Source: a virus
DNA: 37,764 nucleotides
Strand: one strand, 5' to 3'
IMG/VR virus record: IMGVR_UViG_3300032228_000003
Location: 1-37,764 of that record
The notes beneath the pieces were generated by a model. It saw only the letters and a program-made list of their open reading frames with translations, did not search any database and was not told the DNA's origin. A program made the translations under genes and the position numbers. Of the stretch, positions 1,499 through 37,764 are shown one piece after another; the stretch's first letter is position 1; each line of letters starts with the position of its first letter.

Positions 1499-1627
1499 CT
1501 AGTCCTTGGGAGAGGCTAACATTAATCGTACAATGCCTAGATCTAGAACATAGTATTTGATACCATCATCATCTACATATTCAAACCCAAACATAAACCC
1601 GCATATAAAGTGTAGTTCTAAAATCAT
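1499..1627 (-). CDS. Small hydrophobic hypothetical protein (42 aa)
   Basis: A 42-residue protein rich in F, L, I and Y with an internal VDDDG acidic turn. The start ATG overlaps the reductase stop (ATGA at 1624-1627), and GGAGG lies 9 bases upstream inside the end of the reductase gene, so translation is coupled. It is the last gene of the left arm, just ahead of the terminator. Similar very short Phe-rich proteins occur in other aquatic phages, but no function is known to me. Confidence 0.7.
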   Translation of the reverse strand: MILELHFICGFMFGFEYVDDDGIKYYVLDLGIVRLMLASPKD

Positions 1628-3534
1628 ATTGTACATCCTCCTGCTGTGCAGCTTAGCATTTGTGCTCCTTCGACATTATCGTCATACTCCTGGAAGTTGT
1701 CCCAATCAATACCAGTAGGTTGCTGATCAAGTAGCTTCTTGTAATCCTCTTCAGTACACTCTTCATACGGTGCTTGTCGATATGTTCCTCCATCCATTGG
1801 AAGGAAAGACACACCAGTAACCTCATCGAAGTGCTTATACACCCATGCCCCTACTTCCATCCACTCCTTCTCTAAGACAGAGATAGTGACTGATGGCTTG
1901 TGCTCACAGTAGTGACGCTGGTAAATCAACCACAATCGTAAGTGCTCAACAGCAGTCAAGTCCTCACGAAGCAAAGCACCTTCAGCTACTGCAACAGGGA
2001 AACTAAATACTGTTGTAGACTCAGGCTTCATCACACAAGGCTCACCAATAAACCCTGACTTCAGCATGAACTGAGTTAGAGGATCTTTATTATCAGCTCG
2101 TACACGACGAATATAATACTGACTATGCTGAGGATGAATGCCAGAGGCGGTAGAACAGAGTTGTGATACAGTTCCTTCGGGCTTAATAGCCGTAACCGCA
2201 ACACTCTGATTGATTCCAATAGCAGCAGCGTATGCAGCGTTAGTAGCAACAGCAACATCTCGTAGTTTCTCCAATAGTCCTGGTAGTTCCTGATCATCTG
2301 GATCATTCAATAAATGATTGTCCAAGATCCCTGTCATCGATACACCTAGTAAAGCTTCTTCTTCTGTATTCTTTTGCCAGATCTTACGAAGATAAGGGAA
2401 GTTAGTTAGCGATGCTTGGAATGTACCCAAGATAGTAGCTAAGCGAATCTTCCGAAGCAAATCATCTACAGTATCTGTGCTACGAATAATACAAGAAGAC
2501 AAGTTACAGAACTGATATGGACGCAGGATAATCTCTGAGCATGGATTAGTACCAAACTCATAGCTCGCATCACGACGACCATTCTTAGCAGCTTGCTTCT
2601 GACTAGCTTCACGATTAAAGATACCACGCTCACCAGAGTGTGACTCATAAATGCTAGTCCACTCACGCATGAACTGACCAATAGCTGGTGTCTCTTCATA
2701 TGTAGCTGAGTTGTTAGCTAATGCTCGTTGTCCTTGTCCATCCCACCAGTTACCTGCCTTAGCATGTGCCATCTTATCGTCTGTCAAATCAGACAAGCTA
2801 ATCATGGCTGACCGACGGACTCCTCCCACGACAACAACTTCCCCGATCTTACACAGAATATCATGACACTCCAGCGAACTAAGCTTACGTCCAGACGCTG
2901 CCTTGAACTTACTAATAACAAACTTAAAGAGGTCTTCCAACGGTTGTGCTCCAGAGGCACGTCCTCCAAAAGTCTTAAGCCTAGCCCCTGCAGGTCGGAC
3001 TTTTGACACGTCATACTTTGGAATCTCGCCAGAGTATAGAAGAGCGATGAGTTGTCGAAGTGATTTAGCCCACCCTTCTTTACTATCCGACACCATAATA
3101 GAAGTCTGACTAGGAAACAACTGATCTGGTACTTCAGGTAACTTACTAACATACTGTTGCTCCACAGAGAATCCAACACCAGTACCACACAATAGGATAT
3201 ACATCGCCTCATCGAATGCTTTAGCATCATCGATAGGTAAGTACGAACAGTTAAATGCAGCTACATTCTGACGATCTAATGCAGTACCTGCAGTCATCAC
3301 TGCTCTCATAGAAGGCACTACATCCAGGTGTGTTACTGCATCTTGCAACTCTTTGCGTAGCTCAGCAGTCAGCGTATAGTTCTGCTTAGTAGCTAAGTGC
3401 TTCTCCATGAAGTCGAAGTAACGTGCTACAGTTTCACCCCAATGCTCACGACGATTCTTATCATCGAGAAACCGTGAGTAACGGCTCTTGGCAATGAAGG
3501 TATTGTAAGGTGTCATTTGATATTTGTTGGTCAT
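1624..3534 (-). CDS. nrdJ: Ribonucleotide reductase, adenosylcobalamin-dependent (class II)
   Basis: A 636-residue class II ribonucleotide reductase that reduces ribonucleotides to deoxyribonucleotides for phage DNA synthesis, using coenzyme B12 as radical source. Diagnostic motifs are FNCSYLPI (first redox Cys, about residue 95), GTNPCSEIIL (active-site N-x-C-x-E, about 330), IKPEGTVSQLCSTASGIHP (about 450), and a C-terminal CTAGGCTI carrying the two shuttle cysteines. The CSTASGIHP motif and the single short chain resemble the monomeric Lactobacillus-type RTPR rather than class I. No small subunit (NrdB) or activase is present. It overlaps its neighbours by ATGA on both sides and ends the replication operon. 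The host must supply or import B12. Confidence 0.93.
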   Translation of the reverse strand: MTNKYQMTPYNTFIAKSRYSRFLDDKNRREHWGETVARYFDFMEKHLATKQNYTLTAELRKELQDAVTHLDVVPSMRAVMTAGTALDRQNVAAFNCSYLPIDDAKAFDEAMYILLCGTGVGFSVEQQYVSKLPEVPDQLFPSQTSIMVSDSKEGWAKSLRQLIALLYSGEIPKYDVSKVRPAGARLKTFGGRASGAQPLEDLFKFVISKFKAASGRKLSSLECHDILCKIGEVVVVGGVRRSAMISLSDLTDDKMAHAKAGNWWDGQGQRALANNSATYEETPAIGQFMREWTSIYESHSGERGIFNREASQKQAAKNGRRDASYEFGTNPCSEIILRPYQFCNLSSCIIRSTDTVDDLLRKIRLATILGTFQASLTNFPYLRKIWQKNTEEEALLGVSMTGILDNHLLNDPDDQELPGLLEKLRDVAVATNAAYAAAIGINQSVAVTAIKPEGTVSQLCSTASGIHPQHSQYYIRRVRADNKDPLTQFMLKSGFIGEPCVMKPESTTVFSFPVAVAEGALLREDLTAVEHLRLWLIYQRHYCEHKPSVTISVLEKEWMEVGAWVYKHFDEVTGVSFLPMDGGTYRQAPYEECTEEDYKKLLDQQPTGIDWDNFQEYDDNVEGAQMLSCTAGGCTI

Positions 3535-3704
3535 TCAGTCTCTTCCCAGTCTACCTCTTTGCAGAGGCTCTCATAATTGTTTTCAATGTTATCGCTAAAA
3601 GTATCGACAAGCTCTTCTGAAGATATGTTTAATAACTCCAGAAGAGATACCTCATCTAAACGCTTTAGTCGCTCTTTTAACTCAGGCACTGTAAGCGTTA
3701 ACAC
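3531..3704 (-). CDS. Small acidic hypothetical protein (57 aa)
   Basis: A 57-residue protein with a GTG start 1 base past the previous gene's stop. Pattern: VPELKERLKRLDEVSLLELL then ISSEELVDTF, followed by an acidic tail. The stop overlaps the reductase ATG (ATGA). It resembles short phage proteins of the LLELL-I-SEEL type that often sit among replication genes; function is unknown. A second GTG at codon 6 is an alternative start. Confidence 0.7.
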   Translation of the reverse strand: MLTLTVPELKERLKRLDEVSLLELLNISSEELVDTFSDNIENNYESLCKEVDWEETE

Positions 3705-7185: not shown

Positions 7186-7221
7186 TGTTATTTCTCCTAG
7201 TTAATTAGTACTACAACATAT

Positions 7222-7250
7222 ATTATACCACACTTTTAGTGCTGCGTCAA
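7222..7250 (-). promoter_or_regulatory. Sigma70 promoter for SSB-exonuclease-nuclease genes
   Basis: Minus strand: TTGACG (7250-7245), 17-base spacer ending TGTGG, TATAAT (7227-7222), an extended -10 promoter. It gives the SSB message a leader of about 30 bases with AGGAG. The block AGTGTGGTATAATAT is identical to that of the promoter at 21510. Confidence 0.85.
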
Positions 7251-10731: not shown

Positions 10732-10862
10732 ACGCACACCGTAGATGTTGGACACACTGTACATACAACGTACTTACCGCCTGATACCACAGTAGTTGTA
10801 ACACATGCCATACTATTATTATACACTAGAATCAGTGTTGCTGCAAGTAAAATCTTCTTCAT
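10728..10862 (-). CDS. Small exported protein with signal peptide (44 aa)
   Basis: A 44-residue protein starting MKKILLAATLILVYNNSMAC: two lysines, a hydrophobic core, and an SMA/C site that fits signal peptidase I cleavage before Cys (a lipobox is only partial). The mature part is about 25 residues, Thr/Val-rich, with four cysteines (including VVCTVCP). It is linked by ATGA overlaps to the primase-helicase stop (10859-10862) and to the membrane gene that follows. A periplasmic disulfide micro-protein is likely; function unknown. Confidence 0.7.
   Translation of the reverse strand: MKKILLAATLILVYNNSMACVTTTVVSGGKYVVCTVCPTSTVCV
10818..10846 (-). promoter_or_regulatory. Possible weak extended -10 promoter
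   Basis: Minus strand: TTGCAG, 17-base spacer ending GTG, TATAAT (10823-10818) with an upstream TG. The -35 matches only three of six consensus bases. It lies inside the exported micro-protein gene and could boost the membrane protein and genes below. Confidence 0.4.
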
Positions 10863-12493
10863 AAATTATTCTCCTCTGGTGGTAACTCTGACATACGACC
10901 TGTCATCCTGTTGTACAACAACCTACATGCTAACCCAGTCAGTCCACTGAATCGATTCTTGAGGATACGCACATAGGTAGTGTTCCTCTCCATCGCATCA
11001 GTATGCTGCCCATTACGCTCTAAACCAATCACCATGTCGCTTAACTGAGCGATTGCACCTGAACCCCTTAGCTGTGCCAATGAAGTCGCTGCGCCCTCCT
11101 CATGCCCCTTAGATTCAGGACGCTTGAGATGGGATACTACAAACAATGCAATGCCTGTCTCCTGCACCAGCATACGAAGCTTCGTCATGATCTCATCAAT
11201 TGCCTTACGCTCGTCTCCTGACTCCTGAGCACTTACAATAATACTGATATGATCAACGAAAATATATTTGCAATCCAAGCCCCTAGCCATAAACCGCACA
11301 CGATTGACAATGTTATCAACGGAAGTGCTACCAAAATGATCAAACAAATAAAGCCTATCCGTACCAAGTGTTCTATTAAACGCATCTTTTATATCCTCAT
11401 CTGTTGCCTCACAATCGGGTAGATGTAAGGGTTTGTTTGCTGCCAATGCCATCAATGACTTAGCTGTCTTCTTGACTGACTCCTCCAAGAACATAAGACC
11501 AATGTTATCTTCTGTCTTGCTGAGGATCTGCCATACAATCTCTCGCAAGAACTGAGACTTACCTAGTCCTGATCCAGCAGTCACCGTCACCAGCTCACCT
11601 AGTCGAATGCCATAGGTTAGATCGTTGATCCCTTCGTAGGGATACATCACCTCTGCCTTCTCCTCTGCCTGATTGACTAACTCCCACAGCGTAGACCCTG
11701 AGACAATCCCATCGGGTACATACTTCTCTGCATTCCACCATGTATCCACGAACTCCTTCGTCTTATTGGTAGACAAGTAGTCACATGCATCCTTGAGATC
11801 CTTGGTAGGATACTTGAAGATATGCGCCTTCGCACCAAACAATTCAGCTACTTGATTGGCTGCTTGCTGCCCAGGTTCATCGTTATCAAAGCAGATTACA
11901 ATCTTCTCGAATGAATCAAGATACTCGTAGCTGGCACGACAATCCTTGAGTGCTGCTTGTGCTCCGTTACGAACAGACACCACTGGGAATCGTGATCCAG
12001 TTAACTGGTATGCTGCTAGTGCATCGAACTCACCCTCAGTAATCGTGATAGCCCTACCACCAGGAGTGAACTTGTTCTGACCAAACATGGTAGCACTCTT
12101 CCAGTCACCTTGAATACTGAACTCCTTTGCTGCAACTGCACGAATCTTAGCAGCCACAGTCTTCCCTGCTGCATCGCAATATGGAAAGTAGTAATTCTTA
12201 CCATCAGAACCTGCACCAAAGAAGTGCATAGTTGCTTTACTGATACCTCGTTCTACAACATGTACTGCCTCTGTATTATTAAATACCTCTAGGACTTGCA
12301 TAGAGCCTCTCTGTTGAGTTTGTTTATCTAGGTAGATACCTAGCCCTTCCATGTCTTCCATCGTCGCTCTAGGGGCTGCTATACGGGTGTGACACACATG
12401 ACAAAACTGGTGACCATCGTCGTATAAACTGTTAGCATCACTAGACCCACAATTATTACATGGTATATGCTTTAAGAAGTTACTTTCAGTCAC
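10859..12493 (-). CDS. DNA primase-helicase, T7 gp4-like
   Basis: A 544-residue bifunctional primase-helicase for lagging-strand synthesis. The zinc-binding domain has CNNC at residues 12-15 and CHVC at 31-34. The TOPRIM primase core shows ITITEGEFDALAAY (about 150-163) and VICFDNDEPGQQAA (about 197-210). The RecA-type helicase has Walker A TAGSGLGKS (about 305-313), a Walker B-like YIFVDHISI, and the SHLKRP / QLRGSGAIAQLSD motifs. Length and order match T7 gp4 (566 residues). The start is GTG 12493, which overlaps the upstream stop by 8 bases. The zinc domain means it can recognise priming sites itself. Confidence 0.95.
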   Translation of the reverse strand: MTESNFLKHIPCNNCGSSDANSLYDDGHQFCHVCHTRIAAPRATMEDMEGLGIYLDKQTQQRGSMQVLEVFNNTEAVHVVERGISKATMHFFGAGSDGKNYYFPYCDAAGKTVAAKIRAVAAKEFSIQGDWKSATMFGQNKFTPGGRAITITEGEFDALAAYQLTGSRFPVVSVRNGAQAALKDCRASYEYLDSFEKIVICFDNDEPGQQAANQVAELFGAKAHIFKYPTKDLKDACDYLSTNKTKEFVDTWWNAEKYVPDGIVSGSTLWELVNQAEEKAEVMYPYEGINDLTYGIRLGELVTVTAGSGLGKSQFLREIVWQILSKTEDNIGLMFLEESVKKTAKSLMALAANKPLHLPDCEATDEDIKDAFNRTLGTDRLYLFDHFGSTSVDNIVNRVRFMARGLDCKYIFVDHISIIVSAQESGDERKAIDEIMTKLRMLVQETGIALFVVSHLKRPESKGHEEGAATSLAQLRGSGAIAQLSDMVIGLERNGQHTDAMERNTTYVRILKNRFSGLTGLACRLLYNRMTGRMSELPPEENNL

Positions 12494-12997: not shown

Positions 12998-13323
12998 CCC
13001 TCACTCCTCTTCTTAGCACCCGATAGTGTACGCATCTTAGCTAACACTTCAGCTAAAGGTTCTATCATCATGCATCTACAACTACTAATTGTTATGGGTG
13101 CAAACACTCTGCCACTATCAGACTCTTCTCGGATGTCGATGAAGTCTTCAAAGAAACTACGCACAGTGGCTTTGAGTTCTTCAATTCTTGCGTGTTGCGC
13201 TCTAAGTACCCACTCTGCTTCAGGACACCATGCAAGATAACCTTGGCTTAGGTGGTCAGCAATGTTAAGCGCATCACCTATATCTAAGTTGTCTGCTAGT
13301 TCTTTTTTATCTACGCTACCCAA
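12994..13323 (-). CDS. Hypothetical protein, TTG start (109 aa)
   Basis: Unrecognised 109-residue helical protein (LNIADHLSQGYLAWCPEAE, then HARIEELKATVRSFFEDF) ending in a basic AKKRSEG. The longest frame begins at 13371, but a TTG at 13323 has AGGAGG exactly 7 bases upstream, and the earlier start would overlap the previous gene by 61 bases. I therefore use TTG 13323 (MGSVDKKELADNLD), leaving a 13-base overlap. Confidence 0.7.
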   Translation of the reverse strand: MGSVDKKELADNLDIGDALNIADHLSQGYLAWCPEAEWVLRAQHARIEELKATVRSFFEDFIDIREESDSGRVFAPITISSCRCMMIEPLAEVLAKMRTLSGAKKRSEG

Positions 13324-13481
13324 GGTAATTCCTCCTGGCTTTCCTGCCTCTTCATCCGCAAGTGATAGCATGAATAGATATCATCCATTACCTTATCGAC
13401 ACCATACAATTGAATGAAGTCTACTGCATCCTGGATCATGAAGTGATAGACCATCTCTTCATCGTGTTTGTTACAGCTCAT
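13311..13481 (-). CDS. Hypothetical helical protein (56 aa)
   Basis: A 56-residue protein (MSCNKHDEEMVYHFMIQDAV, then GVDKVMDDIYSCYH) with a basic/Gln-rich end. AGGTGA lies 6 bases before the ATG. It is the first gene after the promoter at 13578-13606, with the operator cluster in its leader, so it and the replication genes behind it are the likely regulated transcript. Function unknown. Confidence 0.7.
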   Translation of the reverse strand: MSCNKHDEEMVYHFMIQDAVDFIQLYGVDKVMDDIYSCYHLRMKRQESQEELPWVA

Positions 13482-13502
13482 GTCGTTCACCTTATAAGTT
13501 TA

Positions 13503-13574
13503 ACTACTTAGATACTTATATAAAATACAATAATATATAAATCTACTTAAGACTACTTAGTATAACTACTTAGT
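13503..13574. promoter_or_regulatory. Operator cluster built on ACTACTTAGT
   Basis: Sites: ACTACTTAGA (13503-13512), TCTACTTAAG (13542-13551), ACTACTTAGT (13552-13561) and ACTACTTAGT (13565-13574). ACTA-CT-TAGT is an inverted repeat. The 20 bases at 13543-13562 recur exactly at 17294-17313. The last three sites lie just downstream of the -10 box of the leftward promoter, where a bound protein would block transcription start or escape. Confidence 0.7.
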
Positions 13575-13577
13575 AAT

Positions 13578-13606
13578 AGTATAGCAGACATTTGGATTGT
13601 TGTCAA
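13578..13606 (-). promoter_or_regulatory. Sigma70 promoter for the primase-polymerase operon
   Basis: Minus strand: TTGACA (13606-13601), 17-base spacer, TATACT (13583-13578). The -35 box overlaps the end of the upstream gene. The predicted leader of about 90 bases contains the ACTACTTAGT operators. Confidence 0.85.
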
Positions 13607-13803
13607 TAATTATCTTCATCGTATTCATCCTCCTCATAGTCATCTTCATTCCCATCGTATAAGTCATACCGTTCTACGCTAAGTAAGTCATCACTAACAG
13701 TAGAGTAGCACTTGTTACACATGTCTAAATATTCCCCTGTTGTTGCATGCTTACGGGTAGACTCAAAGTCATTCAGGTTTTTATCACAACATTGGCATCT
13801 CAT
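13603..13803 (-). CDS. Zinc-ribbon-like protein with acidic tail (66 aa)
   Basis: A 66-residue protein with CQCC at residues 3-6 and CNKC at 29-32, a likely zinc site, followed by a highly acidic, Tyr-rich C-terminus (about the last 20 residues D/E/Y/N). An acidic tail on a zinc ribbon suggests an inhibitor or partner of a nucleic-acid-binding host protein, but that is inference. It overlaps the upstream gene by ATGA. Confidence 0.7.
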   Translation of the reverse strand: MRCQCCDKNLNDFESTRKHATTGEYLDMCNKCYSTVSDDLLSVERYDLYDGNEDDYEEDEYDEDNY

Positions 13804-13988
13804 AATATGGAATCTCCTAGTACTGTATATGCTTTAATGAATCGATTGTCTGCTAACTTCTTTTTAAATACTTTAATTGTCTCTATCCGTAGCGATCTGT
13901 CTAGTGATAAGAACTTCTCTGCCTCTTCCTTATAACTAAAGATACGGATAACGCTACCGTCTGTTTCTAGTATCTTATAAAGCTTCAT
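13800..13988 (-). CDS. Hypothetical protein (62 aa)
   Basis: A 62-residue basic protein (MKLYKILETDGSVIRIFSYK start). GGGGAA lies 5 bases upstream of the ATG, and the start overlaps the preceding micro-membrane gene by ATGA. Its promoter (14022-14050) lies inside that gene. No family recognised. Confidence 0.65.
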   Translation of the reverse strand: MKLYKILETDGSVIRIFSYKEEAEKFLSLDRSLRIETIKVFKKKLADNRFIKAYTVLGDSIL

Positions 13989-14080
13989 ATCGTTCCCCTA
14001 GCTATGGCAATGAATACATGTATTGTAAAGTAAATTGCTGTGAATGTCAAGAGCCACCGTATAAACTTGTTTTGATTCAT
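13985..14080 (-). CDS. Membrane micro-protein (31 aa)
   Basis: A 31-residue protein with a basic N-terminus (MNQNKFIRW) and one transmembrane helix of about 18 residues, then ARGTI. GGGAGA lies 5 bases before the ATG. It is joined to its neighbours by TGATG and ATGA overlaps, forming a run of coupled tiny genes. Function unknown. Confidence 0.6.
   Translation of the reverse strand: MNQNKFIRWLLTFTAIYFTIHVFIAIARGTI
14022..14050 (-). promoter_or_regulatory. Sigma70 promoter for 13603-13988 genes
   Basis: Minus strand: TTGACA (14050-14045), 17-base spacer, TACAAT (14027-14022). The leader to ATG 13988 is about 27 bases and carries GGGGAA. Confidence 0.7.
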
Positions 14081-14145
14081 CAATCTCTCCCAACATAGTA
14101 AGCAACCACTAACCAAAGTATAACTACGCACCAGTATACACTCAT
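14080..14145 (-). CDS. Membrane micro-protein (21 aa)
   Basis: A 21-residue peptide that is almost entirely one hydrophobic helix (MSVYWCVVILWLVVAYY) with a charged GRD end. It starts in an ATGA overlap with the upstream gene and ends in a TGATG overlap with the next, which is the main evidence that it is translated. Confidence 0.5.
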   Translation of the reverse strand: MSVYWCVVILWLVVAYYVGRD

Positions 14146-14351
14146 TTATCATAGTCACCAGCAATGAATTGATCTGAGGTAATGCCTAGCTTACGAGCCT
14201 CTTGAGTGATCCATACCGCCTCTTCGTAGTGCTCTTGATACTTAGCCCTTACCGCTGGATCGACAGGCTCTACCGTCCCATAAGAGGGCTTGTTGCGCCC
14301 TACTCTATTAGCCTCATGAATCCCTGCTAATGCCTTGTGTAAGTAACTCAT
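14142..14351 (-). CDS. Hypothetical protein (69 aa)
   Basis: Unrecognised 69-residue soluble helical protein (MSYLHKALAGIHEANRVGRN start; VDPAVRAKYQEHYEEAVWI). ATGA overlaps at both ends. Function unknown. Confidence 0.65.
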   Translation of the reverse strand: MSYLHKALAGIHEANRVGRNKPSYGTVEPVDPAVRAKYQEHYEEAVWITQEARKLGITSDQFIAGDYDK

Positions 14352-14521
14352 TCCTTATACTCCTTCGCTTGTTGAATAAATGTATTGACTGAATCCATCT
14401 CCGACTTGGTGAAGATACATCTGTACTTGTTCTCCGTAATCATAATCTCATCGGCATAAGTCCTAGCCTCTTGATAAGTCTTAAACCCTTTACCATCAAC
14501 GTAAAATTGAAAATCTTCCAT
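14348..14521 (-). CDS. Hypothetical protein (57 aa)
   Basis: A 57-residue protein, aromatic-rich (MEDFQFYVDGKGFKTYQEA), with an alpha/beta look. GGGAGG lies 9 bases upstream of the ATG and the stop overlaps the next ATG (ATGA). Function unknown. Confidence 0.65.
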   Translation of the reverse strand: MEDFQFYVDGKGFKTYQEARTYADEIMITENKYRCIFTKSEMDSVNTFIQQAKEYKE

Positions 14522-14542
14522 CTTGAAAGCCTCCCTTATAAT

Positions 14543-14935
14543 TTACTCTACCCTAAAAAACCATTTAACATAAGACCTAGGATTAGGTACTTGGTTATCG
14601 TACCATACCCCATCAATTAACGCAAGCGCATGCCTTGATTTAATAACGTAGTACTTACCCTTCGGGTATAGCTTTGCAAAATTAGCTAGTGACATCTTAA
14701 CTTTTATAGGCATTTGCCAATTGTTTATTGCTTTCTCTGGACTGCCTTGTTTTAAAACATTCAGGGCAGTAGTAATCACTCGTACACTAGACCCCTTACC
14801 CGTTACCCTACCATGCTCTAAAAACGTCTTATAGACCTCATAATATGGCTTGTTTAAGACTATGCTCATGGCATTCAAGGCACAATTATTTCTATCGCTT
14901 AGGGTAATGTCTGCCAATTGTTTTACATATTCCAT
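14543..14935 (-). CDS. Putative papain-like cysteine peptidase
   Basis: A 130-residue protein with the layout of a minimal papain-fold cysteine enzyme, similar to phage C39/NlpC-like proteins: DRNNCALNAMSIVL (Cys18 at a helix start), then KGKYYVIKSRHALALIDG (His102 on a strand) and WYD (Asp113). The phrase 'grY.v.s.HA.a.idG..yD' is typical. It has no signal peptide and lies among early genes, so it would act inside the host, for example cleaving or deamidating a host protein. Activity is inferred; the substrate is unknown. Confidence 0.65.
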   Translation of the reverse strand: MEYVKQLADITLSDRNNCALNAMSIVLNKPYYEVYKTFLEHGRVTGKGSSVRVITTALNVLKQGSPEKAINNWQMPIKVKMSLANFAKLYPKGKYYVIKSRHALALIDGVWYDNQVPNPRSYVKWFFRVE

Positions 14936-15111
14936 TAGTCTGCCTCCTCGATTCTGTCAATCTGCCATCCACCATCATTATTCATGGGGATATAATCTCC
15001 TCCGTCTAATTTGTAAGCTTCATCCCATGCCTCATCTTTAGACTCTGCCTCGATATCACAATAAACCTCGACAACATAAGACGCAATTACTCTATATTTT
15101 TTTGTATTCAT
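14935..15111 (-). CDS. Hypothetical protein (58 aa)
   Basis: A 58-residue acidic protein with beta-alpha-beta pattern (YRVIASYVVEVYCDIEAESK, then DEAWDEAYKLDGG), like short phage proteins with a 'DEAW' helix. It is joined to the peptidase gene by TAATG. Function unknown. Confidence 0.65.
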   Translation of the reverse strand: MNTKKYRVIASYVVEVYCDIEAESKDEAWDEAYKLDGGDYIPMNNDGGWQIDRIEEAD

Positions 15112-15112
15112 T

Positions 15113-15382
15113 TTAAGTATTCCATAGGTTAAGGGTTTTATTAGTTTGCTTACGGTTTAAAGCTTGAGCGATATCGTCCCCTCCAATATCCTTAATCCAT
15201 CCACTGCCATGCCATTGCCCTTGGCTATCGTGGTAATCTAGATCTATCTGATTCTCTCCCCAGATTATAGCCACTGCCTTACTGCCTTGCTCCATTGCAT
15301 TCTTAAGGCATGAATCTATTTGCTTTTTAGATGGTTTACGATTGAAAAATTCATATTCATCCACTAAGTATAAGGTGCTCAT
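15113..15382 (-). CDS. Hypothetical protein (89 aa)
   Basis: Unrecognised 89-residue soluble protein. A central alpha/beta stretch (SKAVAIIWGENQIDLDYHDS) precedes GQWHGSGWI. It overlaps the upstream gene by ATGA and is 1 base from the next start. Function unknown. Confidence 0.65.
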   Translation of the reverse strand: MSTLYLVDEYEFFNRKPSKKQIDSCLKNAMEQGSKAVAIIWGENQIDLDYHDSQGQWHGSGWIKDIGGDDIAQALNRKQTNKTLNLWNT

Positions 15383-15537
15383 AATTCCTCCACAATGTTT
15401 AGATCTTCAGCGATCCATGCCATCTCAGTACAGATATCGCTCCACTCGTTATCGTATTCCTCTATTCCTTCAGGTATGCCGTGCTCCCTATAAAAGTGCA
15501 AGGCATTCCAAATTAGCTCCAAATTTATTTCACTCAT
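15379..15537 (-). CDS. Small acidic protein (52 aa)
   Basis: A 52-residue acidic protein (MSEINLELIWNALHFYREHG, then GIEEYDNEWSDICTEMAWI). Its net negative charge and helical pattern are typical of early host-takeover inhibitors, but there is no direct evidence. The stop overlaps the next ATG as ATGA. Confidence 0.65.
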   Translation of the reverse strand: MSEINLELIWNALHFYREHGIPEGIEEYDNEWSDICTEMAWIAEDLNIVEEL

Positions 15538-15551
15538 GATAAACCCTCCAA

Positions 15552-16193
15552 TTATTTGATTGATTGAATCTTGATTACTTTAGCCATCTTGACCCCATGC
15601 GCTTTATACGCAATGACTTGCACGTCTTTATTGTAGCAAGCCCTGCACCCGTTGCACTTGCCTTCATGCTGGTAAGCTTGGCATTCTACTGCACCAGCTG
15701 GCACTACATCACTAAAAATTGTGCTAGTAGTTTGCCCCTTAATGATATCACCGTTTACACTATCGCTAGAGAATCGTACCACTACATTAGGCAATGCCAT
15801 CATGGAATCTATTGTATGCTGGAATTTAATAAACTTGTGCATTCTAGTAGGAAGCCAGTGTTTTACCCATGGTGTCAATTGCATAACAGCTAGTATTTTA
15901 TTGGCTAAGCTTAGATCATACATATCCCCGCTATCAAACCATCTAAAATAACGGCTAGAATCTAAAGCTTGAACCATCTCACTAACCCATGAATCCCGCT
16001 TCCAGTCTTCTCTATTGAACTCTCTTGGCTTCTTAACATTAGCGAAGCGATAGTTCCCCGTAGTGGCATAACAACCTTGGCAAGCTGGCACTAATCCGCC
16101 GTTACCGTCTGAAGATCCTGGGCAAGTATCAATAGCCTGAAGAGACCATGACAGAATGCCGTCAAGCTTACTTGTTTTAGATAATTTGATCAT
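15552..16193 (-). CDS. GP88-family protein
   Basis: A 213-residue protein of the phage 'gene product 88' family. Cysteine-containing blocks: DTCPGSSDG, PACQGCYATTGNYRF, RWFDSGDM, and near the end CNGCRACYNK. The family is of unknown function; its clustered cysteines suggest metal or Fe-S binding. ATG 16193 is preferred over the longer frame (16220) because GGGAGG lies 8 bases upstream and it begins 1 base after the micro-protein stop. It is among the first leftward genes, consistent with early expression. Confidence 0.85.
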   Translation of the reverse strand: MIKLSKTSKLDGILSWSLQAIDTCPGSSDGNGGLVPACQGCYATTGNYRFANVKKPREFNREDWKRDSWVSEMVQALDSSRYFRWFDSGDMYDLSLANKILAVMQLTPWVKHWLPTRMHKFIKFQHTIDSMMALPNVVVRFSSDSVNGDIIKGQTTSTIFSDVVPAGAVECQAYQHEGKCNGCRACYNKDVQVIAYKAHGVKMAKVIKIQSIK

Positions 16194-16194
16194 G

Positions 16195-16284
16195 TTAAAA
16201 ACCTCCCGTAGTGTAGACATATATTACCAGTGGAATTGTAAAGCACAATAAACCTAGTATAAAACCTTGTAATAATTTAATCAT
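16195..16284 (-). CDS. Membrane micro-protein (29 aa)
   Basis: A 29-residue peptide with a single transmembrane helix (FILGLLCFTIPLVIYVY) and a short polar end. AAGGAG lies 8 bases before the ATG, one of the best ribosome-binding sites in the left arm. It sits between the first leftward gene and the GP88 gene, whose own Shine-Dalgarno lies in its last codons. Function unknown. Confidence 0.65.
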   Translation of the reverse strand: MIKLLQGFILGLLCFTIPLVIYVYTTGGF

Positions 16285-16296
16285 TGTAGCAGCTCC

Positions 16297-16485
16297 TTAG
16301 ATCTGAAATTGTACTACTGTAATCTTATGATCGTCTAATAGCTCTTGGCATGCTTCATTATGCCATTTTGCCCACTGCATAAAATCTTCATATCCCAGCT
16401 CATTAGTGTTTATGTGAGTTAAGCATACAGTAACGCTATTAAATAGCTCACTAATCTTTTTAGCTTGTTTGTTTGTGATAGTCAT
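16297..16485 (-). CDS. First leftward gene, hypothetical (62 aa)
   Basis: A 62-residue protein (MTITNKQAKKISELFNSVTV, then EDFMQWAKWHNEACQELL). The ATG at 16485 has AAAGGT 7 bases upstream; the frame is open to 16530 but the first 15 codons lack a Shine-Dalgarno. It is the leader gene of the left arm, so it is likely made immediately after infection. The lysine-rich helical start may bind nucleic acid; unrecognised. Confidence 0.65.
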   Translation of the reverse strand: MTITNKQAKKISELFNSVTVCLTHINTNELGYEDFMQWAKWHNEACQELLDDHKITVVQFQI

Positions 16486-16545
16486 TTTAATACCTTTCGT
16501 TTTGTGTTTACTTACCTCCATTGTAAGCATGTTTTGATCTATTTT

Positions 16546-16561
16546 CTTGACCTAGATCAAG
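16546..16561. promoter_or_regulatory. Imperfect palindrome CTTGACCTAGATCAAG
   Basis: A 16-base near-perfect inverted repeat (CTTGA-YCTAGR-TCAAG with one mismatched pair), followed by ATTCTTGAA. It sits 60 bases upstream of the first leftward ATG and could be an operator for the left arm. Confidence 0.4.
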
Positions 16562-16610
16562 ATTCTTGAAATTAGTTATGCTCCAAAACCCTAATATAAA
16601 ACCAGGTTAA

Positions 16611-16625
16611 TGATAATCATTCTCA
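16611..16625. promoter_or_regulatory. Fur-box-like palindrome 1
   Basis: TGATAATCATTCTCA matches the 7-1-7 Fur consensus TGATAATNATTATCA at all positions but one. It lies about 125 bases upstream of the first leftward gene. Confidence 0.5.
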
Positions 16626-16641
16626 TATGGTTTAACTCTTA

Positions 16642-16684
16642 TATAAGACATAAGATATAAAACATAAGACATATTACATAAGAC
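16642..16684. repeat. Short ATAAGA repeats
   Basis: ATAAGA occurs four times in 43 bases, three of them as CATAAGA, in an AT-rich stretch lying between the two Fur-like sites. Candidate DNA-unwinding or protein-binding iterons. Confidence 0.4.
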
Positions 16685-16688
16685 TGAA

Positions 16689-16703
16689 TGAGAACTATTC
16701 TCA
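16689..16703. promoter_or_regulatory. Fur-box-like palindrome 2
   Basis: TGAGAACTATTCTCA, a perfect 6-3-6 inverted repeat (TGAGAA/TTCTCA) sharing ATTCTCA with site 1, 78 bases away. It is weaker against the Fur consensus than site 1. Confidence 0.45.
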
Positions 16704-16711
16704 ATTGATAT

Positions 16712-16993
16712 TGCCTAATTCAACTCACTAGATCCATGCATGGGATTGTCATTGCCTAGTCATTAGCTAGTGCCTTGATAAGTGCTTATTGCCTAGTGTC
16801 TGAATAGTGCTCTAGAGTGTGGTGTCACTACTCTCTCACTCTGCAATTGACTGCCTAATTATTAAGCAGATAACTAAACAACATGGGGGAGGGGAGGTAG
16901 TTGCTCTGTATTTAATTATGATGCCTCTCAAACACCTAAAAAGGAGAATTAAGACTGCCTAATAATTAAGCAAACTGCCTAATATTTAAGCAG
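16712..16993. repeat. TGCCTA motif array with three 19-bp palindromes
   Basis: TGCCTAAT or TGCCTAGT occurs at 16713, 16753, 16790, 16852, 16956 and 16976 (plus TGCCTT at 16771), all on one strand. Three copies are full near-palindromes of the form CTGCCTAAT-N-(A/T)TTAAGCA: 16851-16869, 16955-16973 and 16975-16993, the last two in tandem 20 bases apart. Confidence 0.65.
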
Positions 16994-17040
16994 ATGTCCA
17001 GGTAGGAATATGTTCAATGTAATCAATGGCTTATAATAAA

Positions 17041-17068
17041 AGAAGATAGATACTGATGTCTATCTTTT
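17041..17068. terminator. Hairpin flanked by A and T runs
   Basis: AAGATAGA (17043-17050) pairs with TCTATCTT (17059-17066) around an 8-base loop, extendable to about 10 pairs, followed by TT and preceded by AAAAG. AT-rich and with short T-runs, it may insulate the two arms, but terminator strength looks low. Confidence 0.4.
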
Positions 17069-17088
17069 AAAAGAAGATAAAGATGAAC

Positions 17089-17191
17089 TGCGGAATACGC
17101 TCTAGCTCTGCTCACCAGACCCGCATAGTCTCCCTATAGAGGGGTTCATAACTCAGCTTCCCTATACCCCTAAGACGTGCTCCGTAGGGAA
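17089..17191. other. GC-richer structured island
   Basis: Within AT-rich DNA, this stretch shows several nested inverted repeats: TGCGG/CCGCA (17089-17093 with 17121-17125), CCCT/AGGG (17132-17135 with 17140-17143), TTCCCTA/TAGGGAA (17158-17164 with 17185-17191) and inner ACG/CGT. Alternative pairings are possible because CCCTATA occurs twice. No open frame and no tRNA fold were found. It could be a small RNA, or a packaging or replication site. Confidence 0.45.
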
Positions 17192-17207
17192 TTAAGTAAA
17201 ATAAAGC

Positions 17208-17236
17208 TTGACAAATCTAAGAAGTTGTGGTATAAT
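17208..17236 (+). promoter_or_regulatory. Main rightward (late) sigma70 promoter
   Basis: TTGACA (17208-17213), 17-base spacer ending TGTGG, TATAAT (17231-17236): both boxes perfect, with an extended -10 TG. It drives the terminase and head genes through a leader of about 135 bases that carries the operator cluster. Confidence 0.92.
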
Positions 17237-17292
17237 AGTTGTACTAAGAAGAAGACTAAGAGCAAACTAGGTAAAAAACAATAAGAACCAAA

Positions 17293-17324
17293 ACTACTTA
17301 AGACTACTTAGTAAACTAATTAGT
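17293..17324. promoter_or_regulatory. Operator cluster in the late leader
   Basis: ACTACTTAAG (17293-17302), ACTACTTAGT (17303-17312) and ACTAATTAGT (17315-17324, a perfect palindrome) in tandem. Sites 1 and 2 include a 20-base block identical to 13543-13562. They lie about 50-80 bases past the predicted start of the late transcript. Confidence 0.7.
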
Positions 17325-17378
17325 GTAAGACTTTAAGTTTATTTCTATTTGTTCTCTGCGTTAGCAGGTAAAGGATAT

Positions 17379-17843
17379 ATGTCTCAAGATGATGTTGTTT
17401 TGTCGCAGCAATCTAAATCAATTGATATTGCTGTGTCTCCTCTCAAGGTGGATGTCTCAAATGAAGTAGTGCCAGCACAGCCCCGTAGGAGAGGTCGTCC
17501 TCCTAAGTCATTGGTGCAGAGCAAGAAGAAAAGAAACAAAGTAGGCAGACCAGTAGGCGATGCAGGACGAATACAAGAATTTAAAGCAAGATTATTATCA
17601 ACCAGTGGTACTAAAGTAATTGACACAGTACTGCGTAAAGCATTAGATGATAATGACAAGGATCAAGTGGCTTGCCTCAAGATGTGCATGGATAGATTAC
17701 TACCCACATCATTATTTGAGAAAGATGCTAAAGGACAACGTAATGCAGTAACGATTAACATTACTGGATTAGGTGAAACTAAAGTAGAAGCAGTAGAAAC
17801 AATAGATGCAGAGATAGTAGATTATAATGAGGTAGATGAATGA
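17379..17843 (+). CDS. Putative terminase small subunit with AT-hook-like motifs
   Basis: A 154-residue putative small terminase that would recognise phage DNA for packaging. Identity is inferred from position directly before the large subunit (ATGA overlap) and from a DNA-binding character. It has PRRRGRPPK (about residues 35-43), a canonical AT-hook core, and a second weaker NKVGRPVGD, then a helical region (RIQEFKARLLSTSGTKVIDTVL) and an acidic C-terminus that may contact the large subunit. The ATG at 17379 follows AAAGGA; the frame extends to a TTG at 17349 that lacks a Shine-Dalgarno. Confidence 0.7.
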   Translation: MSQDDVVLSQQSKSIDIAVSPLKVDVSNEVVPAQPRRRGRPPKSLVQSKKKRNKVGRPVGDAGRIQEFKARLLSTSGTKVIDTVLRKALDDNDKDQVACLKMCMDRLLPTSLFEKDAKGQRNAVTINITGLGETKVEAVETIDAEIVDYNEVDE

Positions 17844-19093
17844 ACCTCAGCTTCGAGTTACTACCTTGGCAAAAAGAAGTATTCCAGGATAAGACTAGGT
17901 TTAAAGTTATTGTTGCTGGACGACGATGCGGTAAATCAAGATTATCTGCTGTAGCATTATTAGTAGAAGGACTACGTTGTCCACAAGGTTCTGCTGTAAT
18001 GTATGTTGCTCCTACTCAAGGACAAGCCAGACAGATTATCTGGGATGTTCTAATGGAACTAGGAAGAGAAGTGATTCAGAGTAGCCATGTGAATAATATG
18101 GACATCACTTTAATTAACGGAGCTAAGATATATGTTCGAGGTGCTGATCGTCCAGACACATTACGTGGGGTTAGTCTTACATATCTTGTTTTAGACGAGG
18201 TAGCTGACATAAAACCAGACACCTGGGAGAAGGTCTTAAGGGCTTCTCTATCAGACAAGAAGGGTTCTGCTCTCTTCATAGGAACTCCTAAGGGTAGGAA
18301 CTGGTTCTACGATATGTACAACCTTGGTCTTACAGACGAAGATGAAGAGTGGAAGTCATGGCACTTCACTACCAAAGATAACCCACTAATTGATCCTAAA
18401 GAGATCGAAGGTGCAAGAAAGACATTAAGTAGCTTCTCATTCAAGCAAGAGTATGAAGCTTCTTTTGATAACGCAGGAACAGACTTATTCAAAGAACAAT
18501 GGATTGAGTACGGTGAAGAACCAAGCGATGGGGTATACTACCTGGCAATCGACTTAGCGGGATTCACTAATACCAACTATTCAGAGTCTCGTAAGAAGAA
18601 GTTGGATGAGTCTGCAATTGCTGTGGTTAAGGTCACAGATGATGGTGTTTGGTTTGTAAAGAAGATTGAGCACGGTCGCTGGGATGTCAAGGACTGCGCT
18701 GCACGGATTCTAAAGAACATCAAGGAGTTCGAACCTGTAGGTGTAGGGATGGAGCGAGGCACAGTTAGAAACGCTGTGTTGCCCTATCTGAGCGATCTGA
18801 TGAGGTCGAACAACACATATGCTACCATTCAAGACTTAACGCATGGCGGTAAGAATAAGACAGAGCGTATTGTCTGGGCATTACAGGGACGATTTGAACA
18901 TGGTAAGGTAATCCTAAATGAGGATGAGGACTGGAAAGAGTTCGTAGACCAGCTCCTAATGTTTCCTACCAACCAAGTACACGATGACTTGATCGATGCT
19001 TTAAGCTACGTTGATCAACTCGCTGTAACAAGCTACTTCATGGATGACGGTGAAGATGATTACGAACCAACTGATTTTATTGCGGGGTATTAA
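17840..19093 (+). CDS. terL: Terminase large subunit
   Basis: A 417-residue packaging motor with ATPase and nuclease domains. The ATPase shows Walker A GRRCGKS at residues 27-33, Walker B LVLDEVADI (about 113-121), and the coupling segment FIGTPKG (about 150). The RNase H-like nuclease has YLAIDLAG (first Asp, about 238), GVGMERGT (about 299), and HDDLIDAL (last Asp, about 385-392). It starts inside the small-subunit stop (ATGA) and is followed by a TAATG overlap. Length and motif order fit podovirus/headful terminases; the packaging mode is not decided by sequence alone. Confidence 0.95.
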   Translation: MNLSFELLPWQKEVFQDKTRFKVIVAGRRCGKSRLSAVALLVEGLRCPQGSAVMYVAPTQGQARQIIWDVLMELGREVIQSSHVNNMDITLINGAKIYVRGADRPDTLRGVSLTYLVLDEVADIKPDTWEKVLRASLSDKKGSALFIGTPKGRNWFYDMYNLGLTDEDEEWKSWHFTTKDNPLIDPKEIEGARKTLSSFSFKQEYEASFDNAGTDLFKEQWIEYGEEPSDGVYYLAIDLAGFTNTNYSESRKKKLDESAIAVVKVTDDGVWFVKKIEHGRWDVKDCAARILKNIKEFEPVGVGMERGTVRNAVLPYLSDLMRSNNTYATIQDLTHGGKNKTERIVWALQGRFEHGKVILNEDEDWKEFVDQLLMFPTNQVHDDLIDALSYVDQLAVTSYFMDDGEDDYEPTDFIAGY

Positions 19094-21509: not shown

Positions 21510-21538
21510 TTGACTTTTGAGAAAAAGTGTGGTATAAT
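21510..21538 (+). promoter_or_regulatory. Sigma70 promoter ahead of scaffold and capsid genes
   Basis: TTGACT (21510-21515), 17-base spacer ending TGTGG, TATAAT (21533-21538). AGTGTGGTATAATAT is shared with the leftward SSB promoter. The leader of about 43 bases carries AAGGA before ATG 21588. It should boost scaffold and capsid. Confidence 0.9.
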
Positions 21539-21587
21539 ATTTACATTGTATCACAGTTAATCTCCAAAGTCAAGGAAAAAGATTACA

Positions 21588-29190: not shown

Positions 29191-29219
29191 TTGACTTTTA
29201 TATAAATTTGTGTTATAAT
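29191..29219 (+). promoter_or_regulatory. Sigma70 promoter for tail-tube genes
   Basis: TTGACT (29191-29196), 17-base spacer ending TGTGT, TATAAT (29214-29219). It shares ATAAAGC upstream of the -35 with the promoter at 17208. The transcript would start about 5 bases before ATG 29231, so the adaptor gene would be nearly leaderless. Confidence 0.88.
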
Positions 29220-35494: not shown

Positions 35495-37764
35495 TGGCTA
35501 CATGGGAAACCATCACTCCTGCTAAGGAAGATGCAGGATGGGAGACAGTTGCTCCACCTGTAACTACTGAGGCTGTTAACACAGCAGCTTTTAAGAGCAT
35601 AGGAGAAAGTATTCCTACTGTAGTTAAAGAAGCTGCTGGTACAGTGGGCGAAGTAGCACAAGCAGGTTGGGAAGCATTACCAGAACCAGTACAGAAAGCA
35701 GGTCGTGCTACAGGTAACTTCTTACTTGATGCTATTGATATCCTCCAACGTCCATTCCAAGCAACTGCTACCTATGTTAAGGCTTTAGGTACAACAGAAG
35801 AGTCAGAGAAAGGTGCTCCTCTATGGGATATTCTATCTACTGAGAACCTAGCTAAGGCACAACAAGCTGGTATCAAAGGACTTAAAGGACAAGAGAAGGC
35901 TTCTTTTCAAGAGGCTCTTCCTGATCAGTTCCGTAGAGAGAACCCAGTCAAGTCTATGCTCCTTGGTTTCATGGGTGATGTTATCATTGATCCCCTGAAG
36001 GGCGAGGTAATTGCTCCTATATTTAAAACTGTTAAAGCTGCTGCATCTACGGGGGCTGATTCTATTGGTCTGTCCTCTAAGCTTGCTGACAATGAACTAT
36101 ATCGTACTATGGTTCTAAAGACAGGCGATACAGCTGAGGCTAAGAAGCTCTATGATCAATATCGCTTTGCTAAAGACAAGGCTAGAATAGAGAATGTTCG
36201 TAATGCTAAGTCTCTTAACAATGAGATTAAGGCACTATCTAAGCAGACAGACATTCCTGTTAATGAACTCAAGGCTAAGATATTCCAAGACATAGAGACT
36301 GGTTCTTTAAGCGACGATGCTGTAGGTCAGCTAGAGCAGCGTATCGTAGCACAGAATCGTGCAAGACTAGAACAACAACAAGCAGCTGGTATTGAAGTAG
36401 GTGACTTAGGTGATACCTACATGCCACACATAGCTACTAAAGAAGCAGATGATGTCCTGAATAATACAGGTGTTAAGAACTTCTTTGGTATCCGTCCTTC
36501 TGCTAAGACACCTCAAGGTGTTGCTCGTGAGATCGACGGTACTGTAGCTGAGATTAACGCTAAGAATATCTATGGCACTACTAAGTTCTTCCAAGATGAT
36601 CCTGCGATTGCACTTGGTATAGCAGACTTCAATGCTGCTCAGGCTATAGCTGGTCGTAAGTTCTTAGATGATGCTTCTCAGTTTGGTATTAAGGCTGATG
36701 TTGCACCTGCTAGTTACAAAACTATTCCAGAGATTCCTGGTCTCAAGTTTGAACCTGCAGTAGCTAACCAGTTAACACGCTCATACAAGGCACTAACCAA
36801 TCAAGAAGAAATTAATAAGTTCTTGAAGGTGTATGACGGTGCTCAGAACTGGTGGAAGATGTGGTCTTTAGGTATCCGTCCAGCTTACCATGCTAAGAAT
36901 ACTATTGGTAACTTATGGAACAGCTACTTAGGTGGACTTACTACACCTAAACCTTATGGCGATGCTGCTGCATTCCAAGTCAAGGTAGCTAAGAACAACT
37001 TAAGCGGTAAGATTGCTGGCTATCCTACTGAAGAACTGTACGATGCCATGATGACTCGTGGTGTCTTTGGTCAAGGACAGTACGGTGGTGATATTAGTCG
37101 TACATTAGAAAGTCAGATAGCTGGTGGAAATAGAAACCCCTTTACCTTATCCACTAGTAATCCTATTCTGCAAGGCGGTTTTAAGCTAGGTCAGACTATT
37201 GAAGACAATGCTCGTATTGCTTTGTTCATTGATCAGTTAAACAAGGGTGCTTCGTTTGATAAAGCAGGTAACCATGTCCGCAAGTACCTGTTTGATTACG
37301 GTGATGTAAATCCATTCGAGAAAGATGTTCTGAAAAGAGCAATGCCTTTCTATACTTGGTCTCGTAAGAACATTCCTCTGCAGCTGGAAGCATTAGCTAC
37401 GCAGCCTGATAAGATCAACAAGATTAACCTTGCTATTAACAATATCCAGCAAGCTAATCAAGTAGAGCAGCCAGACTTATCTCAAGTACCTGAGTACATC
37501 CGTGAGCAAGCTCCTGTCTATGTTGGATCTAATGCAGAAGCTGGTACTGTATCTGCTATTCCTTTGACTAACTTGATACCTACCTTTGATATTGCAGCTA
37601 TCACTAAGTTCCTCAACACTGAGACAGCTCCTCAAGGTATCCAGAAGGGTAAATTAGGTACAGCTTTGTCTACTGTTATGGGTGGTGTTTCTCCGTTGAT
37701 TAAAGCACCTCTGGAATACCTAGCAAACTACGACTTCTTCCGTAAGAAAACTATTCAAGAAGAA
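35494..37764 (+). CDS. Large internal virion protein, N-terminal part (continues at 1-582)
   Basis: The first 757 codons of the 909-residue protein completed at bases 1-582 (the last 41 codons here repeat 1-123). The TAATG overlap at 35492-35496 sets the start. It opens with MATWETITPAKEDAGWETV, followed by helical regions and GVEVGDLG-like EVGDLGDTYMPHIA. Near residues 600-630 is KYLFDYGDVNPFEKDVLKRA and MPFYTWSRKNIPLQ, a motif conserved in large polyvalent/internal virion proteins of many podoviruses. No lytic transglycosylase motif was found, unlike T7 gp16. Likely part of the ejected channel. Confidence 0.85.
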   Translation, partial: MATWETITPAKEDAGWETVAPPVTTEAVNTAAFKSIGESIPTVVKEAAGTVGEVAQAGWEALPEPVQKAGRATGNFLLDAIDILQRPFQATATYVKALGTTEESEKGAPLWDILSTENLAKAQQAGIKGLKGQEKASFQEALPDQFRRENPVKSMLLGFMGDVIIDPLKGEVIAPIFKTVKAAASTGADSIGLSSKLADNELYRTMVLKTGDTAEAKKLYDQYRFAKDKARIENVRNAKSLNNEIKALSKQTDIPVNELKAKIFQDIETGSLSDDAVGQLEQRIVAQNRARLEQQQAAGIEVGDLGDTYMPHIATKEADDVLNNTGVKNFFGIRPSAKTPQGVAREIDGTVAEINAKNIYGTTKFFQDDPAIALGIADFNAAQAIAGRKFLDDASQFGIKADVAPASYKTIPEIPGLKFEPAVANQLTRSYKALTNQEEINKFLKVYDGAQNWWKMWSLGIRPAYHAKNTIGNLWNSYLGGLTTPKPYGDAAAFQVKVAKNNLSGKIAGYPTEELYDAMMTRGVFGQGQYGGDISRTLESQIAGGNRNPFTLSTSNPILQGGFKLGQTIEDNARIALFIDQLNKGASFDKAGNHVRKYLFDYGDVNPFEKDVLKRAMPFYTWSRKNIPLQLEALATQPDKINKINLAINNIQQANQVEQPDLSQVPEYIREQAPVYVGSNAEAGTVSAIPLTNLIPTFDIAAITKFLNTETAPQGIQKGKLGTALSTVMGGVSPLIKAPLEYLANYDFFRKKTIQEE
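37642..37764. repeat. Terminal direct repeat, right copy
   Basis: Identical to bases 1-123 and in the same reading frame. Removing one copy gives a 37,641-bp circular sequence. Confidence 0.95.

Follow-up and report, generated by a model that had tools for sequence, protein, structure and literature searches.

MetJ- and Arc-type ribbon-helix-helix repressors act on operators that consist of short dyads, about one per helical turn, which are filled cooperatively and lie at or just past the promoter. In the CopY/BlaI 'cop box', TACAnnTGTA, two 4-bp half-sites flank a 2-bp spacer to make a dyad of 10 bp, and in phages, stoperators and nut-type sites exemplify one signal repeated behind the promoters of divergent units, nut sites being read in RNA with one sense per transcript. 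Here we describe two arrays of 10-bp dyads in a 37,764-bp phage record of the IMG/VR database (IMGVR_UViG_3300032228_000003, analysed in full and hereafter called the window), one behind a leftward promoter, PL, and the other behind a rightward promoter, PR. The arrays are very probably a real gene switch, because they are kept in many relatives and in at least one apparently unrelated virus group.

The arrays are similar to MetJ/Arc-type operators in the repetition of dyads and in their position at the promoter, but the letters of the sites differ. They share the dyad architecture of the cop box, but with the letters ACTWnnWAGT and with three or more sites in a row. Unlike nut- or put-type signals, they change sense between the PL and PR transcripts, and the right leaders give no consensus fold. 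In transcription roadblock operators (review PMC10310618), a protein bound inside the transcribed region stops RNA polymerase; the likeness here is one of position only, and at PL the array overlaps the start region as well.

An operator array in general is a known kind of element. Searches of titles and excerpts in the open-licence literature found neither this site family nor its promoter geometry, nor its occurrence across unrelated phages, and the literal 10-mers ACTAAGTAGT and ACTACTTAGT led to no phage operator paper by title; in a bacteriophage-titled match (PMC8546982), the passage concerned was a primer table.

Two dyad arrays behind consensus promoters

The promoters and operator sites of the window are as follows.

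17208-17236, plus strand: PR, rightward promoter, TTGACA-N17-TATAAT, 12 of 12 consensus positions, TG before the -10 box
17293-17302, no strand: right operator site 1, ACTACTTAAG, an imperfect dyad
17303-17312, no strand: right operator site 2, ACTACTTAGT, the commonest right site of relatives (28 occurrences)
17315-17324, no strand: right operator site 3, ACTAATTAGT, a perfect 10-bp palindrome
13578-13606, minus strand: PL, leftward promoter, TTGACA-N17-TATACT, 11 of 12 consensus positions, with the same geometry in relatives
13565-13574, no strand: left operator site 1, ACTACTTAGT (transcript strand ACTAAGTAGT), starting 3 nt past the -10 box and covering the start region
13552-13561, no strand: left operator site 2, ACTACTTAGT
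13542-13551, no strand: left operator site 3, TCTACTTAAG, imperfect, one mismatch against the right copy
13503-13512, no strand: possible fourth left site, ACTACTTAGA, just 5' of the next gene, a sequence that many left leaders of the window's own clade retain

A first-pass annotation of the window had described triplets of sites at 13542-13574 and 17293-17324 with a 20-base match between them, each cluster downstream of a consensus promoter. This description was borne out, and the identity of 13543-13562 with 17294-17313 is exact. A stricter account than its 'three-site' clusters is two good sites and one weak one, as the first member of the triplets (..CTACTTAAG) is an imperfect dyad. The left array starts ~3 nt past the -10 box, and the right array lies at about +50 to +80.

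The window has two places with adjacent ACTAnnTAGT dyads, 13552-13574 and 17303-17324, and no third. The two pairs with members at most 4 bp apart compare with none in each of 2000 dinucleotide-preserving shuffles, and the reversed pair pattern had no match in the window. Single loose sites were not enriched (17 matches to ACTANTTAGT with one mismatch, 17.4 expected); what exceeds chance is the clustering of dyads, not the single sites. Promoter-like matches around the arrays were not in excess (13 versus 19.2 in shuffles), and the reversed promoter pattern matched the window twice versus eight times for the true pattern.

Conservation in relatives

Relatives were collected by a terminase search (the best 80 of 230 loci) and a helicase search (70 loci), with contigs partly shared. 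The clade letters were coined in this analysis. Clade A is the window with those relatives that have ACTAnnTAGT arrays, and clade B (terminase 86-90%; L058, L073, L078, L101, L102 and others) has arrays that mix in ACTTnnAAGT. Clade C comprises L144-L165, L171 and L172 (helicase about 57-67%, terminase about 68%), clade D L166 and L168 (terminase 60-64%), clade E L260-L270 (terminase about 53%), and clade F L272/L273 (helicase 62%).

The exact 19-mer CTACTTAAGACTACTTAGT was found in 40 IMG/VR stretches (39 contigs; 11 with two copies, 3.5-4.8 kb apart), all 40 of which encode at least three homologues among the 55 window proteins searched. Upstream of terminase genes, TTGACA-N17-TATAAT with sites below it was visible to about 86% terminase identity, and a PR-type promoter to 84%. 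Right sites are ACTAnnTAGT-like in clade A, and clade B mixes ACTACTTAGT with ACTTAGAAGT or ACTTCTAAGT, which gives the general site form ACTWnnWAGT.

The right-leader set was limited to rows in which a TTGACA-N16-18-TATAAT promoter was present and no less than 4 kb of sequence preceded the terminase, which left 31 distinct leaders. Two exact ACTWnnWAGT dyads were present in 24 of them, three in 2, one in 4 and none in a single leader (L114); the 58 sites compare with 5.9 on average over 300 shuffles (maximum 12) and with none for the reversed pattern. Spacing was 12 in 17 cases, 13 in 6, 10 in 3, and 11 and 32 in 1 each, and the first exact site stood 58-85 nt past the -10 box.

The left set was defined by three small leftward genes of the window.

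13311-13490, minus strand: p59, 59 residues, first small gene after the left array, in the order p66 - intergenic - p59
13603-13803, minus strand: p66, 66 residues, zinc-ribbon-like (CxxC...CxxC) with an acidic tail, ending beside PL
13800-13988, minus strand: p62, 62 residues, a putative binder for clades A and B alone

Intergenic sequences in the order p66 - intergenic - p59 were taken from 153 loci, 71 being distinct. Where p62 was also present, 46 of 52 distinct left leaders had a site and 15 had two or more, the 61 sites comparing with 9.8 in 200 shuffles (largest 17) and none for the reversed pattern. Among the 46 site-bearing leaders, the first exact site started 2-4 nt past the -10 box in 30, 14-16 nt in 14, and 57 nt in 2; in the 14-16 nt group the first slot often holds a degenerate site such as CTATAGAG. 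The intergenics without p62 had a site in 9 of 19, namely three clade A fragments (L005, L025, L069), L166, and five clade C sequences with one site each, ACTATATAGT.

The letters of the sites vary between clade A (ACTAnnTAGT) and clade B (partly ACTTnnAAGT), and dyad symmetry and a pitch of 10-13 bp, mostly 12 or 13, are kept. The left promoter of one contig (L031/L052/L138) carries seven 10-bp units arranged head to tail. When contigs were compared with themselves, a partial copy of the right array was found 3.2-5.4 kb upstream in 46 of 58 rows, a count made without a shuffle control, with some contigs repeated and some matches being two overlapping 16-mers only; five of the 12 misses (L043, L029, L046, L037, L081) have less than 3.8 kb of upstream sequence. 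Among 16 whole records, the pair pattern with at least one base between dyads was present in 12 and the reversed control in none. The misses were G003, whose two right sites abut, G012 (L114), G014 (clade C) and G015 (clade D); in G013 one pair match lies ~350 bp off the array. In a separate scan, single ACTWnnWAGT sites had counts comparable to controls.

The equivalent promoters of relatives keep dyads, clades C, D and L114 excepted. The first-pass annotation had made absence of the clusters from close relatives the test of its proposal, and conservation was found at both promoters (30 of 31 right leaders, 46 of 52 left). Its shared operator design stands to the extent that the leftward replication and rightward packaging promoters both carry conserved arrays. 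Left leaders of clade C (L146, L148, L152, L154 and others) have repeated palindromes of the ATAGTCTATG type where clades A and B carry the array, possibly a replaced operator.

Occurrence beyond the close family

The exact triplet was present in eight IMG/VR contigs, in five of which (L051, L253, L255, L256, L257) a sigma70-like promoter reads into it. L051 belongs to the window's own family, L253 and L255 hold an operon with genes resembling those of the small terminase subunit (TerS), the large terminase subunit (TerL) and the portal (assigned by eye), and L257 (helicase 38%, polymerase 47%) has a poor -10 box, TACCCT. In L251, L252 and L254 the triplet stands in other contexts. The generic pattern TTGAC-N18-TAnnnT-N1-5-ACTAnnTAGT-N0-4-ACTAnnTAG matched 25 IMG/VR stretches, L257 and L272/L273 among them, and all 25 carry homologues of window proteins. 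A scan for TATAAT plus a pair gave 20 stretches, which include clade E and L271. The TATAAT matched in clade E is part of an AT-rich run, and in L260-L269 the array lies 4 nt behind a leftward TTGACT-N17-TACCCT; L271 (terminase 55%) has four sites where its TerS-like gene begins.

A second family, the late-operon family (L253, identical to L292; L255, identical to L288; and L289-L291; all partial contigs), has TTGACA-N18-TATAAT followed by three sites. Four other records of this family, with terminases 94-96% identical to that of L255, keep the promoter and the three sites while the DNA of the region is 77-84% identical; in L289-L291 the middle site is imperfect, ACTATATAGA. No homologue of any of the 55 window proteins was detected in the fragments of the second family, and tblastn with p62, p66 and p59 found none in the 59 loci of a search with the second-family terminase. 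The other 54 loci (at most 45% identical, best segment) had no exact pair, and the reversed-pattern control gave one match in the 620,449 bases of the 59 loci, versus pairs in 2 of the 59. The second family is apparently unrelated to the window phage.

Proposed mechanism

From the sites, their geometry, their conservation and their independence of strand, we infer protein binding, cooperativity, a dimer, repression and timing. The arrays are probably, if with considerable room for error, operators of a cooperatively binding dimeric repressor that gates the replication and packaging units. These units would form one regulon, in which arrays of two to four ACTWnnWAGT dyads (half-sites ACTW and WAGT, 2-bp spacer) recur every ~10-13 bp just downstream of host-type sigma70 promoters, and a dimeric DNA-binding protein would occupy neighbouring dyads cooperatively. 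At PL, with the first dyad ~3 nt behind the -10 box, the bound protein would exclude RNA polymerase or block promoter clearance; at PR, with the array ~50-80 nt into the transcript, it would be a roadblock. Repression by either route is suggested by position only. Two very strong host-type promoters would in this way be throttled by one protein, and the replication and packaging genes delayed or capped. The protein itself would be a fast-evolving phage product or a host factor.

The leftward unit had been called early in the first-pass annotation, but PL is more likely a middle or replication promoter than the earliest one, because a run of small leftward genes (13603-16530) lies before it.

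Several points weigh against the repressor model. Exact sites are absent near four other consensus promoters of the window (7250-7222, 4110-4082, 21510-21538, 29191-29219), so that the array marks two particular promoters; the first-pass proposal that the sites time replication and late genes is for this reason only partly apt. Clades C and D (terminase 60-68%) and L114 (84%) still have the genes, with sites that are lost or strongly altered. In L260-L269 the array belongs to a leftward promoter, which lies ~115 bp upstream of the one that reads rightward, and in L258 the pair lies upstream of the nearest consensus promoter. Many leader rows are close relatives and hence non-independent, and the promoter requirement for right leaders favours intact ones. 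Among the proteins compared, none has a distribution that follows the sites. Position alone would also be compatible with activation, or with a role in replication or packaging.

Alternative explanations and candidate binders

An element that acts in RNA, as a leader structure, an antitermination signal or a processing signal, would fit clades A and B, where both transcribed leaders contain the sites, and by eye neighbouring sites could pair in part of clade B. However, the PL and PR transcripts bear opposite strands: on the transcript strand, right leaders have 28 ACTACTTAGT versus 4 ACTAAGTAGT, left leaders 43 ACTAAGTAGT and no ACTACTTAGT, and some right leaders (L051, L055) bear the flipped form. 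Pairing between neighbours is not kept, the forms being direct and not inverted in L075, L085 and L102, RNAalifold found no common pair in 30 aligned right leaders, Rfam had no window match at gathering score, and the L258 pair upstream of a promoter does not fit either. The opposite strands and the lack of a conserved RNA fold place recognition at the DNA level and argue for a predicted protein that reads a DNA dyad; the RNA-level reading was rejected on strand opposition, flipped forms and the missing fold, and we regard it as very improbable. Marginally less credible still is the reading of the arrays as replication-origin iterons or pac/cos sites, with an initiator or the small terminase subunit as the bound protein. 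In its favour, short repeats stand in tandem close to the replication and terminase genes, and a TerS-like gene adjoins the right array. But an origin or packaging site would have no need of two arrays ~3.7 kb apart, both of them in phase with a promoter start in most relatives whose flanks are long enough.

With a DNA-binding repressor as the preferred reading, the question becomes which protein binds. The Pfam and PHROG scans of window proteins revealed no recognisable regulator gene, and the predicted binder is either too divergent to recognise or host-encoded. Specifically, no ribbon-helix-helix protein appeared in the Pfam scan (20 proteins) or the PHROG scans (29 window proteins, three of them scanned twice or also in the Pfam set), although small divergent members can escape such scans, and no member of the CopY/BlaI repressor family was found among the scanned proteins. 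The first-pass annotation had named 62-, 66- and 56-residue products as possible binders, and none of these fared well. No 56-residue product was found, the nearest being one of 57 residues (14348-14521) with homologues in 2 of 15 genomes.

A repressor role for p62, whose gene lies on the leftward strand immediately before PL, seems unlikely. Its gene adjoins PL in clades A and B (69 IMG/VR loci, order p62-p66-array-p59), and it was not found in the four clade C/D records searched; one of the 15 other records searched, that of L114, has it, so that p62 was found in this phage group only. However, it was not found in clade F (G016, 36,693 bp) or clade E (G017, 35,578 bp), both of which carry paired sites, and p62 as a universal binder was rejected on this ground; L114 retains p62 and has degenerate sites. 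The model of p62, of moderate confidence, is beta-beta-alpha-beta-beta (predicted local distance difference test, pLDDT, 73; predicted template modelling score, pTM, 0.46), Foldseek against the PDB gave no match better than E 0.59, and PDB sequence searches gave weak unrelated matches only. A promoter before p62 (in 21 of 67 distinct upstream sequences, a count distorted by over-long rows) was not used; it overlaps the preceding coding sequence and was unseen in clade B rows.

For the zinc-ribbon-like p66 as binder the odds appear poorer again. It is present in every clade compared and adjoins PL in clades A, B and F, and of the small proteins of unknown function encoded around PL it alone was found in all four site-bearing genomes compared (clades A, B, E and F); a 57-residue protein at 3531-3704, away from PL, is also in all four. 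But p66 is kept in clades C and D as well, and it has homologues in the Methylophilales phages MEP401 and MEP402 (56% identity) and in two Manatee Spring phages (44-47%), with paired sites in none of these four whole records, which weakens its case as a site-specific binder. The model of p66 is poor (pLDDT 57). In MEP401 and MEP402 the p66-like zinc-ribbon proteins are encoded directly 5' of the primase gene, and they give a weak hint of a Methylophilales host group.

A host transcription factor that binds the arrays, so that different phage families exploit its sensing of host state, is a real possibility, if one to which we give less than an even chance; it differs from the preferred reading only in who makes the factor. 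It would account for the same promoter-plus-sites design in the apparently unrelated late-operon family and in other contigs (L253, L255, L256, L258), and for the lack of a phage protein that tracks the sites. On the other hand, every one of the 25 generic promoter-operator matches comes from this lineage or from relatives of it, in keeping with a phage-encoded factor, and the other families are represented by partial contigs and may share a gene outside the sequenced part.

Gene context and other elements

A 123-bp direct repeat at the record ends (1-123 and 37642-37764) suggests a complete genome. A leftward gene block runs from 16530 to 1624 and includes primase/helicase, DNA polymerase and ribonucleotide reductase, and a rightward block from 17349 includes terminase, portal, major head and tail proteins. 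The genes nearest to the question are these.

10859-12493, minus strand: primase/helicase, main replication gene behind PL (PHROG 239, E 2e-186)
17349-17843, plus strand: TerS-position gene, first of the rightward unit, start ATG more likely at 17379, basic N-terminus
17840-19093, plus strand: TerL, next after the TerS-position gene

The TerS-position gene has homologues in all 15 genomes compared, with no Pfam match up to E=1 and only PHROG matches above E=0.04; its N-terminal RGRPP/GRPVG stretches we take to be AT-hook-like. PHROGs revealed no RNA polymerase gene among 19 larger or better-matching and ten small window proteins (a subset of the small open reading frames), and the scan of the 19 agrees with the earlier premise that the phage lacks its own. 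Identity of the ribonucleotide reductase (1624-3534) is 84-97% across three genomes of clade A and 83% for L154 of clade C but drops to 28-29% in the clade B genomes, a pattern which suggests a swap in one lineage. A terminase scan of genome contigs linked no host genome to the phage; its two Lachnospiraceae matches, ~30 residues each, were judged spurious.

The leader of the leftward early genes holds a palindrome family, TGCYTAATnnTTARGCA, at 16852-16868, 16956-16972 and 16976-16992; its count was reached by none of 100 shuffles, and 19 of 37 leaders, the window included, have at least one copy. An element TGCGGAA...GACCCGC (17089-17124) upstream of PR is present in 36 of 37 leaders and has no Rfam match. 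Before the early genes lie TGATAATCATTCTCA (16611-16625; 2 of 37 leaders), presumably Fur-box-like, and TTGACCTAGATCAA (16547-16560; 6 of 37 leaders, the window included in both counts), presumably FNR-like. An 18-bp inverted repeat, AAAAGTGTGGTATAATAT, at 7220-7237 and 21523-21540 is common to two internal promoters on opposite strands, neither with an exact operator site.

Significance

The arrays define a regulatory switch from sequence alone in a phage group known here from metagenome contigs only, and they are an exact DNA bait for finding the binder. Tentatively, and in our view rather doubtfully, ACTAnnTAGT arrays behind consensus host-type promoters might be a regulatory code common to several unrelated phage families without a visible RNA polymerase gene, in which one host-encoded or widely exchanged factor would gate replication and packaging. 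If the factor is host-encoded, unrelated phages would rely on one and the same host signal before they commit to replication and packaging.

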